NCBI GenBank assembly: GCA_026014735.1
Contig: JAOZHT010000002.1
Location: 62,001-126,000, forward strand
Length of the DNA stretch: 64,000 nt
Direction: 5' to 3'
Source: Candidatus Bathyarchaeota archaeon
Lineage (GTDB): Archaea > Thermoproteota > Bathyarchaeia > Bathyarchaeales > Bathycorpusculaceae
The notes below the pieces were generated by a model. That model had not been told where the DNA came from, searched no databases, and saw only the letters and a list, made by a program, of their open reading frames with translations. This document shows, in pieces, positions 11,495 through 14,613 of this stretch (positions are counted from its first letter, which is position 1; each line of letters begins with the position of its first letter). The position numbers and the translations under genes are program-made.

Positions 11495-11632
11495 ATTTGA
11501 TACTCCCTAAAACTCCGTTCTGCGGATGCCATCCACTAGGAAGAGTGCAACATGTTATCTTTATGAGGCATTAATTAAAGATTTCGCCGCATCTCCCAAA
11601 ACAGCGTCACCCCCTGTTTTTTTTGCTAAACG

Positions 11633-11638
11633 TTTTTA
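11633..11638 (+). promoter_or_regulatory. TATA-like box for the queT-queC transcript
   Basis: The T-rich TTTTTA lies about 25 nt upstream of the candidate structured leader that begins near 11661. Spacing is what an archaeal TATA box would need to start transcription just before the first stem. It is a pattern match only. Confidence 0.35.
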
Positions 11639-11664
11639 GGCGAGAATTATGCTTATTGCCCCTC

Positions 11665-11725
11665 GGCGCGTGAGAGGGTGCTTCCCACCCGTTGCGCCAA
11701 AAAAATAAAACCCGGAGTTGGGAGG
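11665..11725 (+). ncRNA. Candidate riboswitch-like leader of queT
   Basis: An outer helix pairs GGCGCG at 11665-11670 with TGCGCC at 11693-11698. An inner helix pairs GGGTG at 11676-11680 with CACCC at 11686-11690, leaving loop CTTCC at 11681-11685. That loop can pair with GGAGG at 11721-11725 (one G-U), which is the ribosome site of queT, whose ATG is at 11735. Two stems plus a loop-to-SD pseudoknot and an A-rich linker resemble preQ1 switch logic, although the sequence does not match a preQ1 class I recognise. Sensing a 7-deazaguanine is inference. Confidence 0.5.
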
Positions 11726-11734
11726 CAAAAAAAT

Positions 11735-12256
11735 ATGCGTATACAAACCAAAGAGTTAGCCATAATGGCCCTATATGCTGCCCTGTATGCAGCGCTAGTG
11801 AATGTGTTACCCCAGTTATCTTTTGGACCGCTTAACCTGCGTGTAGCCGACGCCCTTTTAGGCGCTGTGCCTTTACTGGGCATGGCGGGGGTTTTAGGAC
11901 ATACCCTTGGAGTCTTCATCGGAAACCTAACCTCGCCCCTTGGAGTAATCGATTTACTCAACACAATACCGTCCTTTGCCATGGCCTTTGTCGTCTACTA
12001 CGTGTATAGGCGCACCCAAAACGACTACACCGTAATCGCCACCAGCATCGCCTACTCCGCCGTGCTAGGAGCCACCGTGGGCTGGATGCTCTCGGCGCCC
12101 TTCAACATACCGCTGCCGCTCAGCATACTCTACGTGTTCCTCGGAAACCTCGTGGTAACGGTGGTGGGCGGGTTTGCGTTGTTTAAGGCACTTAAGAAAC
12201 TGGGTATCCAGCGGCTAATCGGGACAGGACCAAACCAAAGAGGAGAAAAGACATGA
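11735..12256 (+). CDS. QueT-family membrane transporter (7-deazaguanine precursor uptake)
   Basis: The 173-residue protein has about five hydrophobic segments and the family pattern LAIMALYAALYAALVNVLP and LRVADALLGAVPLLG. QueT-type proteins are ECF-transporter S components linked to queuosine or archaeosine precursors. ATG at 11735 follows GGGAGG. The stop overlaps the queC start as ATGA, so the two are translationally coupled. No ECF energising subunits are nearby, so they would have to be shared. A structured leader precedes it. Confidence 0.82.
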   Translation: MRIQTKELAIMALYAALYAALVNVLPQLSFGPLNLRVADALLGAVPLLGMAGVLGHTLGVFIGNLTSPLGVIDLLNTIPSFAMAFVVYYVYRRTQNDYTVIATSIAYSAVLGATVGWMLSAPFNIPLPLSILYVFLGNLVVTVVGGFALFKALKKLGIQRLIGTGPNQRGEKT

Positions 12257-12909
12257 CAAAAAATAAGAAATGCGTGGTTGTTCTAAGCGGCGGCCCAGAC
12301 TCAGCCACCGTCGCGTACTGGGCACGCCAGCAGGGATACCAAATCTACCCCATAACCTTCAACTACGGGCAAATCGCAGTGAAAGAAACCGCCTGCGCCC
12401 AGAAAATCGCGGAGAAACTCGGCGTAGCCACCAAAACCATCAACCTCTCCGCCCTCAAAGACATCTTCAGCGACGCCACCAGCCTAGTCAACCCCGACAT
12501 CCCCCTCACCAGCGAATTCAGCAGCCCCATCATCGTGCCCTTCCGCAACGCCATCTTCCTCTCCGCCGCCGTCGCCTACGCCGTCACCGTGGAGGCAACC
12601 AAAATCTTCTATGGCGCACAGGGCAGCGACGAACCCTTCTACCCGGATTGCCGCAGAGAATTCTACCGGGCCTTTGAGAAAGCTGCGCAGCTGGGGACCT
12701 GCAGGGAAATCACGATAGAGGCGCCGTTTAGCGGCGGCAAAAAATCAGATTTGATACGCGAGGGCGCTAAGCTGGGCGTGCCTTTTGAGTTGACGTGGTC
12801 ATGCTACCGCGGTGGCATGCTGCATTGTGGACGATGCGAGTCCTGCGTGAACCGCAAAAAAGCCTTCCGGGAAGCGGGCATAGAGGACCCGACAAGGTAT
12901 GAATCCTAA
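12253..12909 (+). CDS. queC: 7-cyano-7-deazaguanine (preQ0) synthase QueC
   Basis: QueC converts 7-carboxy-7-deazaguanine to preQ0 using ATP and ammonia; in archaea preQ0 feeds archaeosine in tRNA. The PP-loop SGGPDS is at residues 12-17, with TFNYGQ and YGAQGSDEPFYPDCR following. The C-terminal zinc site has WSCYRGG, HCGRCESC. The 218-residue length is complete. It is coupled to queT by an ATGA overlap, pairing synthesis with uptake. No queD, queE or arcTGT gene is in the window. Confidence 0.95.
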   Translation: MTKNKKCVVVLSGGPDSATVAYWARQQGYQIYPITFNYGQIAVKETACAQKIAEKLGVATKTINLSALKDIFSDATSLVNPDIPLTSEFSSPIIVPFRNAIFLSAAVAYAVTVEATKIFYGAQGSDEPFYPDCRREFYRAFEKAAQLGTCREITIEAPFSGGKKSDLIREGAKLGVPFELTWSCYRGGMLHCGRCESCVNRKKAFREAGIEDPTRYES

Positions 12910-13152: not shown

Positions 13153-13230
13153 TAGGCCTCTAACCTCACGCCTCATGGTGCTTAAGAAGGTGTTTGGCGG
13201 GTTTTTCTGGGAAGTTTTAAATCCGACTTG

Positions 13231-13249
13231 TCCCACTGCATATGTGGGA
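13231..13249. promoter_or_regulatory. Inverted repeat, putative VapBC autoregulatory operator
   Basis: TCCCAC at 13231-13236 and GTGGGA at 13244-13249 form a perfect inverted repeat with a 7-nt spacer. It ends five nt before the antitoxin ATG at 13255. Toxin-antitoxin operons commonly repress themselves through such sites; that use here is inferred from position. Confidence 0.45.
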
Positions 13250-13254
13250 TAAAG

Positions 13255-13509
13255 ATGGAGTTAGCCGAGCAAGTCACCATAAAAGTAGATTCAAAAGGCA
13301 GAATCTGCATTCCAGCAGAAATCCGCGGCGAAATCGGCGACACCGCAACCATAAAACGGGTCCCCGAAGGCTTTCTCATCATTCCAGGCAAAAAAGAGGA
13401 TGCCGTTGAAAAACTACGAAAAATCATCAATTCAAAACATGAACGAACTGGCAAACCTGAGAATTGGTCGCCTGAAAAAATGAAATCAATTTGGGGCAAA
13501 AGTGAATGA
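13255..13509 (+). CDS. vapB: AbrB/MazE-fold antitoxin (VapB-like)
   Basis: The 84-residue protein begins with an AbrB/SpoVT swapped-hairpin domain: QVTIKVDSKGRICIPAEIRGEIGD. The C-terminal 35 residues are charged and end in WSPEKMKSIWGK, as in toxin-binding tails. ATG at 13255 is preferred over the in-frame TTG at 13228, which would run through the palindrome at 13231-13249. Its stop overlaps the toxin start as ATGA. It should bind its own promoter and neutralise the PIN toxin. Confidence 0.8.
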   Translation: MELAEQVTIKVDSKGRICIPAEIRGEIGDTATIKRVPEGFLIIPGKKEDAVEKLRKIINSKHERTGKPENWSPEKMKSIWGKSE

Positions 13510-13940
13510 TTGTGGGCTTGGATGCCAACATCCTCTGCTATGTTCTAGACGATGCTTACCCTGAACATGAAGTTTTAAAGAATCTGCTGCTGGAATTAAC
13601 CCCTGAAAATAAGGTTGCTCTTAACCCGACAACAATCCATGAATCATACCATGCACTGGTGCGTTCCCAGAAGTGGCTGCCTGAAAAAGCCGCAGACGCA
13701 TTGATAACAATCATAAATATGCTCAACACGGAATTTTACAGCCAAACCAAAAAAACCAGCACAATAGCCCTCAACCTCTCCGCCCGACATAACCTCGGCG
13801 GCAGAGACGCACTCATAGTAGCGAATTACATTGCAAACCAAACCCCAACCATATACACGCATGACAAAGGACTTCTAAAACACCAAAAAATAACCTACAA
13901 AAACACCACCCTAACAATAAAAGACCCCCTACAAAAATAA
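13506..13940 (+). CDS. vapC: PIN-domain ribonuclease toxin (VapC-like)
   Basis: The 144-residue PIN domain shows the acidic set D6 (IVGLDANIL), the E in HESYHAL, D of GGRDALIV and D of IYTHDKGLL. These coordinate metal for RNA cleavage. The start overlaps the antitoxin stop by four nt. Length and motif order are typical of VapC. The target RNA cannot be inferred. It sits in a short accessory stretch with another toxin-antitoxin pair 170 nt downstream. Confidence 0.85.
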   Translation: MIVGLDANILCYVLDDAYPEHEVLKNLLLELTPENKVALNPTTIHESYHALVRSQKWLPEKAADALITIINMLNTEFYSQTKKTSTIALNLSARHNLGGRDALIVANYIANQTPTIYTHDKGLLKHQKITYKNTTLTIKDPLQK

Positions 13941-14111: not shown

Positions 14112-14348
14112 TTGGTAAAAAACGTCATAGAACTAGATGAGCGGGATAGCCGCGTAATCAACATAGTCAAAGCCAAATTCGGCCTCAAAGATAAAAGCCA
14201 AGCCTTAAGCGTAATCATCAAGCGCTATGAAGAATGTGAACTTGAACCCCAACTTAGACCCGAATTTGTAGAGGAACTACAAGCTACAGCTAAGAACGGT
14301 AAATTCGTTAAAGTTAAGGATTTCGCGGAAGAGTACGGGCTAAAGTGA
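14112..14348 (+). CDS. DUF2683-like antitoxin
   Basis: The 78-residue protein begins VKNVIELDERDSRVINIVK and continues with GLKDKSQALSVIIKRYEE, a ribbon-helix-helix-like archaeal antitoxin pattern I associate with DUF2683. LRPEFVEEL follows. Start is TTG at 14112 after a GGAGGGG site. It precedes a RelE-type toxin by four nt. Upstream, a TATA-like CATATTAAATA near 14055 and the short inverted repeat GTAA(N7)TTAC may be its promoter and autoregulatory site. Confidence 0.72.
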   Translation: MVKNVIELDERDSRVINIVKAKFGLKDKSQALSVIIKRYEECELEPQLRPEFVEELQATAKNGKFVKVKDFAEEYGLK

Positions 14349-14352
14349 CTTC

Positions 14353-14613
14353 TTGTACAGCCTTGAAATCGAAGAAGAGGTCTCAAAAACCTTCCACAAG
14401 CTCCTCAAAAAGGACCGGCCGCAACTAGAGGCCATACACAAGAAAATCAGCCAAATCCTAACCGACCCCTACCAATTCAAACCCCTAAAACATCCCCTAG
14501 AAGGCCTCCGCCGAGTCCACATCGGCTCATTTGTACTCATATACCAAGTGACAGAAAACCCGCCAACAATTCAGATAATAAAATACACCCACCACGACAA
14601 AGCCTACCTCTAA
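14353..14613 (+). CDS. RelE/ParE-superfamily toxin
   Basis: The 86-residue protein has the RelE fold order: KTFHKLLKKDRPQLEAIHKKI helices, DPYQFKPLKHPLEG, then the strand RRVHIGSFVLIYQV and a C-terminal IQIIKYTHHDKAYL. Basic residues and the terminal H/Y match mRNA-cleaving or gyrase-inhibiting relatives. Start is TTG at 14353, just after the antitoxin stop. With the upstream gene it forms a type II toxin-antitoxin pair. Confidence 0.8.
   Translation: MYSLEIEEEVSKTFHKLLKKDRPQLEAIHKKISQILTDPYQFKPLKHPLEGLRRVHIGSFVLIYQVTENPPTIQIIKYTHHDKAYL

Follow-up and report, generated by a model that had tools for sequence, protein, structure and literature searches.

A conserved pseudoknot in the leaders of archaeal queT and queC genes is a likely 7-deazaguanine riboswitch of a new class

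We analyzed the queT leader (11665-11734) within a window of 64,000 nt. The window is the whole stretch of DNA studied; it comes from an archaeal genome of 2.9 Mb (G000:C2:62001-126000), the closest named relatives of which are Candidatus Bathyarchaeota genomes. The leader is a ~65-nt RNA with the form of an H-type pseudoknot of two helices, and it is almost certainly a conserved, structured cis-regulatory RNA. We consider it likely that this leader of the queT-queC mRNA is a riboswitch for some 7-deazaguanine and that it represents a new archaeal class. The most likely mode of action is that of a translational OFF switch, which would respond to preQ0 or a close 7-deazaguanine. The sequence basis of this reading consists of conservation, covariation of both helices, association with particular genes and the placement of the promoter. 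The element belongs to a widespread and apparently undescribed archaeal RNA family.

The leader extends up to the start codon of queT, and queC begins before queT ends (Table 1). A proteasome beta gene runs in the opposite direction from 11494; its own leader (11495-11588, minus strand) shows ~78-84% DNA identity in 15 relatives and contains CUUCCUA...UAGGGAG, complementary to its own ribosome site, with little variation. Further downstream, the translations of 13228-13509 and 13506-13940 resemble, by eye, an AbrB-like antidote and PIN-like toxin pair, with a RelE-like pair behind it at 14112-14613. The same genome has a second, divergent QueT-like gene (C1:732027-732494, L003) that carries neither the main element nor the second leader described below.

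Table 1. Coordinates of the promoter, leader parts and genes in the window, and of related features at other loci
Feature	Position	Strand	Basis
BRE/TATA-like promoter element, archaeal (TAAACGTTTTTAG)	11627-11639	+	Information peak, 101 loci
P1 5′ strand GGCGC	11665-11669	+	Pairs with 11694-11698; compensatory changes
L1 loop (GUGAGAGGG; family GURRGUGG)	11670-11678	+	GUGAGUGG in 103/139 rows
P2 5′ strand, anti-Shine-Dalgarno UGCUUCCCA	11679-11687	+	Pairs with 11719-11727; 9 consecutive pairs
P2 inner strand CCG	11689-11691	+	Pairs with CGG 11713-11715; nearly invariant
L2 loop (UU)	11692-11693	+	UU in 134/139 rows
P1 3′ strand GCGCC	11694-11698	+	As P1 5′ strand
L3, A-rich loop, conserved end AAA(A/C)CC	11699-11712	+	64% A
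P2 inner strand CGG	11713-11715	+	Partner of CCG 11689-11691
P2 3′ strand UGGGAGGCA, with Shine-Dalgarno GGGAGG 11720-11725	11719-11727	+	
queT, ECF-type 7-deazaguanine transporter S component (putative)	11735-12256	+	Pfam QueT PF06177, E 4e-22
queC, 7-cyano-7-deazaguanine (preQ0) synthase	12253-12909	+	TIGR00364, E 6.6e-56; PF06508
Second leader	L253:248-303; L254:255-310; L255 (-); L256:253-308; L257 (-)		
Membrane-protein family, ~234 aa	L197:2069-2770; L205:1066-1761; L187:2068-2784; also L206, L208, L211, L212, L217, L240		

When 101 loci were aligned on the first base of P1, a BRE/TATA information peak appeared at -39 to -28, followed by almost no information at -27 to -4 and near-invariance from P1 on. 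The TATA-like TTTTTA of the window lies at 11633-11638, and a first-pass annotation of this DNA had already placed such a box upstream of a leader that starts at its first helix. The distance from TATA box to transcription start is established in archaea. From this distance and the position of the peak, transcription should start a few bases upstream of P1, and the queT-queC mRNA thus probably begins with the leader RNA.

Since the single-sequence folding energy of the window's leader is unexceptional (z -0.74), only comparison can decide on its structure. DNA searches of relatives in other families of the order gave alignments restricted to the 11665-11734 block (G098, G093). When 34 leaders were collected and aligned, RNAalifold proposed a longer P2, consisting of YCUCCc/GGGAGR plus (C/U)CCG/CGG(G/A), and not the hairpin of the first-pass annotation. 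All pieces of that earlier proposal are present in the window, and two of them were placed correctly. The outer helix (GGCGCG 11665-11670 with UGCGCC 11693-11698) corresponds to P1, whose compensatory changes go far beyond controls. The pairing of loop CUUCC (11681-11685) with GGAGG (11721-11725) covaries as well, but P2 is about twice the length given then and encloses the entire Shine-Dalgarno (SD) sequence of the window. The inner helix (GGGUG 11676-11680 with CACCC 11686-11690) did not hold up as a conserved feature, with all five pairs present in only 6 of 86 homologues; it uses CACCC and is therefore mutually exclusive with the extended P2. In the family alignment P1 reads GGCGG/CCGCC, and L3 is almost always 8-14 nt long, with nearly invariant AAA and CCCGG.

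The compensating changes proposed earlier as a check on the leader were found in alignments of both 30 and 86 sequences. P1 was paired throughout 30 diverse rows (100%), with 14 two-sided changes, and its fifth pair is G-C in 118 and C-G in 21 of 139 rows, with no mismatch; since P2 was the sole structure built into our covariance model (R1), these P1 counts are not fitted. In a second phylum, P1 is extended with covarying pairs (GUGGCGG/CCGCCAC, UGCGCGG/CCGCGCA and UUGAGCGG/CCGCUCAA). Across P1 and P2 in 86 rows, 95.4% of cells are paired, as against 87.6% in shuffled and at most 62.6% in slid alignments, with two-sided changes at 9 of the 15 pairs, although in this test the P2 columns had been fitted to the model, and shifts of register, not substitutions, account for some of the changes. 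The pairing of the P2 5′ strand with the SD shows two-sided changes in five of six alignment pairs, with part of the complementarity to be expected from the constraint on the SD itself. In an alignment-free test that swapped P2 partners, the mean stem score was 16.7 for true partners vs. 14.9 (sd 0.2, maximum 15.4) over 300 swaps, a score that relatedness inflates. The clearest cases of P2 covariation are loci at which the SD has changed and its partner has changed with it: CCACC/GGUGG (L104), CAUCUCC/GGAGAUG (L112), CCCUCU/AGAGGG (L215), UUUCCGA/UCGGAAA (L188), CCUCGCA/UGCGAGG (L247) and CCUCUCA/UGAGAGG (L248). At L234, the inner CCG and CGG have both changed but remain paired through wobbles. 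Alignment positions 27 and 57 pair in only ~40% of rows, and a U at position 27 always stands with an A at 57 (16/16).

In the order, R1 matched 126 of 163 genomes, which represent 59 of 69 genera, and in the class 186 of 257. It also matched 76 of 398 genomes drawn evenly across the phylum and 13 of 227 in the second phylum, which is the one that holds a Lokiarchaeota record. All 151 strong matches examined lie upstream of QueT, of QueC (then QueT) or of one unannotated membrane-protein family, counting one locus cut by a contig end (L202) and a few with broken QueT frames. Of the order's loci examined, only two weak matches (L122, L127) have no que gene nearby, and these were treated as chance. 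Within the window's family, the element occurs at 78 of 84 queT genes, 75 times directly upstream and three times before a queC-first operon. A scan of IMG/VR for the core pattern gave 36 matches, none of which passed the covariance model, and no element was found in the phage records scanned.

The first-pass annotation had named no matching archaeal class. Rfam 15, also at permissive thresholds, gave no relevant match in the window, nine relatives and five queT loci without the motif, and RF00522, RF01054 and RF02680 in particular had none in the window or the nine relatives. Although the element works like the preQ1 classes, it fails at least one defining feature of each. With preQ1-I (RF00522), a bacterial class that acts on queT and queCDEF genes through the SD or a terminator (PMC11625349), it shares the H-type pseudoknot of two helices and the A-rich third loop. 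The hallmark of preQ1-I is UC or AC before the P1 3′ strand, with the C that reads the ligand (PMC11625349). In contrast, the archaeal element has UU at this place (AUU or ACU in the five other rows), a P2 that in the window has 9+3 bp instead of only a few, other conserved loops and an archaeal host. Like preQ1-II (RF01054, formerly the COG4708 motif), it is a queT leader in which a loop-region anti-SD pairs with the whole SD. However, preQ1-II is an HLout pseudoknot of four helices limited to Bacillota (PMC11625349), whereas the A-rich, hairpin-less L3 of the element is too short for an extra hairpin. It shares the position before queT with preQ1-III (RF02680), but the latter has ~100 nt, five helices and a distal SD switch (PMC11625349), compared with ~65 nt and two helices here. 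The preQ1 family has been reviewed as bacterial, without mention of archaea (PMC11625349), and archaeal riboswitches are few, with TPP and the crcB motif named as classes that cross domains (Weinberg 2010, PMC2864571). In the literature searched, which lay outside subscription papers and preprints, we found no archaeal queT RNA or preQ0 riboswitch. Because of covariation, the tie to queT and queC, the placement of the promoter and the missing Rfam match, the best reading is that of a riboswitch-like, SD-hiding leader, possibly a new preQ0/preQ1 sensor, as first suggested.

Two features bear directly on this reading. The SD lies within a conserved, covarying helix, as in translational riboswitches that sequester it, and a conserved, aptamer-like unpaired core shared by genes of one pathway, a further trait of such switches, precedes queT, queC or the unannotated membrane-protein family at 151 of 151 loci. 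We infer ligand binding, the identity of the ligand, the direction of regulation and an alternative hairpin as parts of one mechanism. P1 would be the first helix to form, and the segment after L1 would then pair with the whole SD region as P2, with the A-rich L3 positioned across the groove of P1 and the two-base L2 connecting the helices. The ligand, most probably preQ0 but possibly preQ1 or another 7-deazaguanine, would be the end product of import and of the QueC reaction. When plentiful, it would be bound by a core of conserved loop bases (GURRG in L1, CCG-UU and AAA(A/C)CCCGG). Binding would stabilize P2, hide the ribosome site and lower the synthesis of QueT and QueC, while a competing hairpin in L1 and the anti-SD could release the site when no ligand is bound. 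With P1, the hairpin of the first-pass annotation has a predicted energy of -18.3 kcal/mol, compared with -9.1 when only P1 forms and -16.0 when P2 forms in the absence of P1; this hairpin may be the ligand-free state. Since its family version, GUGG/CCAC, is conserved but lacks covariation beyond shuffled alignments, we only hypothesize this role.

As for the ligand, the archaeosine tRNA-guanine transglycosylase (ArcTGT) occurs in 24 of 25 genomes and PTPS/QueD in three of 25, the window's genome being among those with the former and among the 22 that lack the latter. With ArcTGT present and QueD mostly missing, the cells probably depend on an imported precursor. The preQ1-I-like leader that stands before five queT genes without the element (see below) likewise speaks for a 7-deazaguanine. 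The product of QueC is preQ0, which is the substrate of the transglycosylase, and many carriers have queT without queC, which fits the import of preQ0 itself. Both points argue against a ligand other than preQ0 or preQ1, such as 7-carboxy-7-deazaguanine, queuine/queuosine, archaeosine base or guanine. Such a ligand, which we consider unlikely, would leave the mechanism unchanged and overlaps with the main explanation, which admits a close 7-deazaguanine. In its favor, most relatives, like the window's genome, retain queC beside queT although QueD is absent, so the imported compound could be the substrate of QueC, and substrates differ among transporters of the same ECF group (PMC11130926). QueT and QueC may import and convert 7-carboxy-7-deazaguanine, or other genes of the pathway may have gone unrecognized; a search for QueE gave generic weak matches below the cut-off, and the substrate of archaeal QueT is putative, by family assignment. 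One point against the main explanation is that L2 lacks the cytosine with which class I switches recognize preQ1. Overall, preQ0 specifically is the somewhat favored ligand.

It is also conceivable, if rather improbable, that a regulatory protein, whether an autogenous one or a dedicated repressor, binds the folded leader and so controls the translation of queT or queC, while the RNA itself binds no small molecule. A gene for such a regulator could exist and its product could bind the conserved loop core, and a nearly invariant unpaired core across two phyla would be expected of a protein site too. However, the element stands before single QueT genes, before operons that begin with QueC and before the unannotated membrane protein, and the downstream genes inspected include no shared candidate regulator. 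Moreover, a preQ1-I-like RNA replaces the element at queT in five genomes, suggesting selection for metabolite sensing. This second conserved leader precedes five queT genes of the window's family that lack the main element (L253-L257), has GGTAGTTTCCGTATATAACCTACCTTAAAAAACCCGG directly upstream of the start codon and follows the layout GGUAG-UUUCCG...AAC-CUACC-UUAAAAAACCCGG. Its preQ1-I hallmarks (PMC11625349) are an AC that precedes the 3′ strand of P1, a UU that follows the 5′ strand, an A-rich tail and a CCG/CGG pseudoknot, yet none of the five loci matched Rfam. The two leaders share an archaeal family, queT, an H-type pseudoknot (by eye in the second) and an A-rich tail ending in AAACC(C)GG, but the second differs in its short P1 (GGUAG/CUACC), its AC before the P1 3′ strand and its CCG/CGG P2. 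In one genome (G031) the two kinds occur together, each before a different queT gene. An exchange of leaders before queT would be expected of interchangeable sensors of one metabolite.

A ligand-free device is very improbable; here the pseudoknot would do no more than reduce the translation of queT, or would react to temperature or to the load of ribosomes. It would agree with an SD that lies fully within P2, but a passive SD-hiding helix needs no invariant unpaired GURRG, UU and AAA(A/C)CC across two phyla. Chance or conservation at the DNA level (a promoter or operator) with no RNA structure, with which the ordinary single-sequence fold would agree, can be practically dismissed, being contradicted by the covariation of both helices, changed SDs included, and by a sharp conserved block that begins at P1 after ~25 unconserved bases downstream of the TATA box.

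The riboswitch reading extends to the unannotated family of ~234-aa membrane proteins, which stands directly behind the same RNA in the place of QueT. Its members are 38-90% identical to the L197 protein and have no Pfam or NCBIfam match, and a profile comparison with hhalign relates the family remotely to QueT (probability 86%). We regard it as a candidate new 7-deazaguanine transporter. Taken as a whole, it is reasonably probable that the element is an ancient archaeal 7-deazaguanine (preQ0) riboswitch class of the Bathyarchaeota-type archaea, other lineages of their phylum and the Lokiarchaeota phylum, that it differs in structure from each of the three preQ1 classes of bacteria and that it points to an unrecognized family of 7-deazaguanine transporters. 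If so, a preQ0-type sensor conserved in two archaeal phyla would be a new structural solution for one of the best-studied ligands, a new transporter family would have been predicted from shared regulation, and the supply of archaeosine and its regulation would become directly testable.
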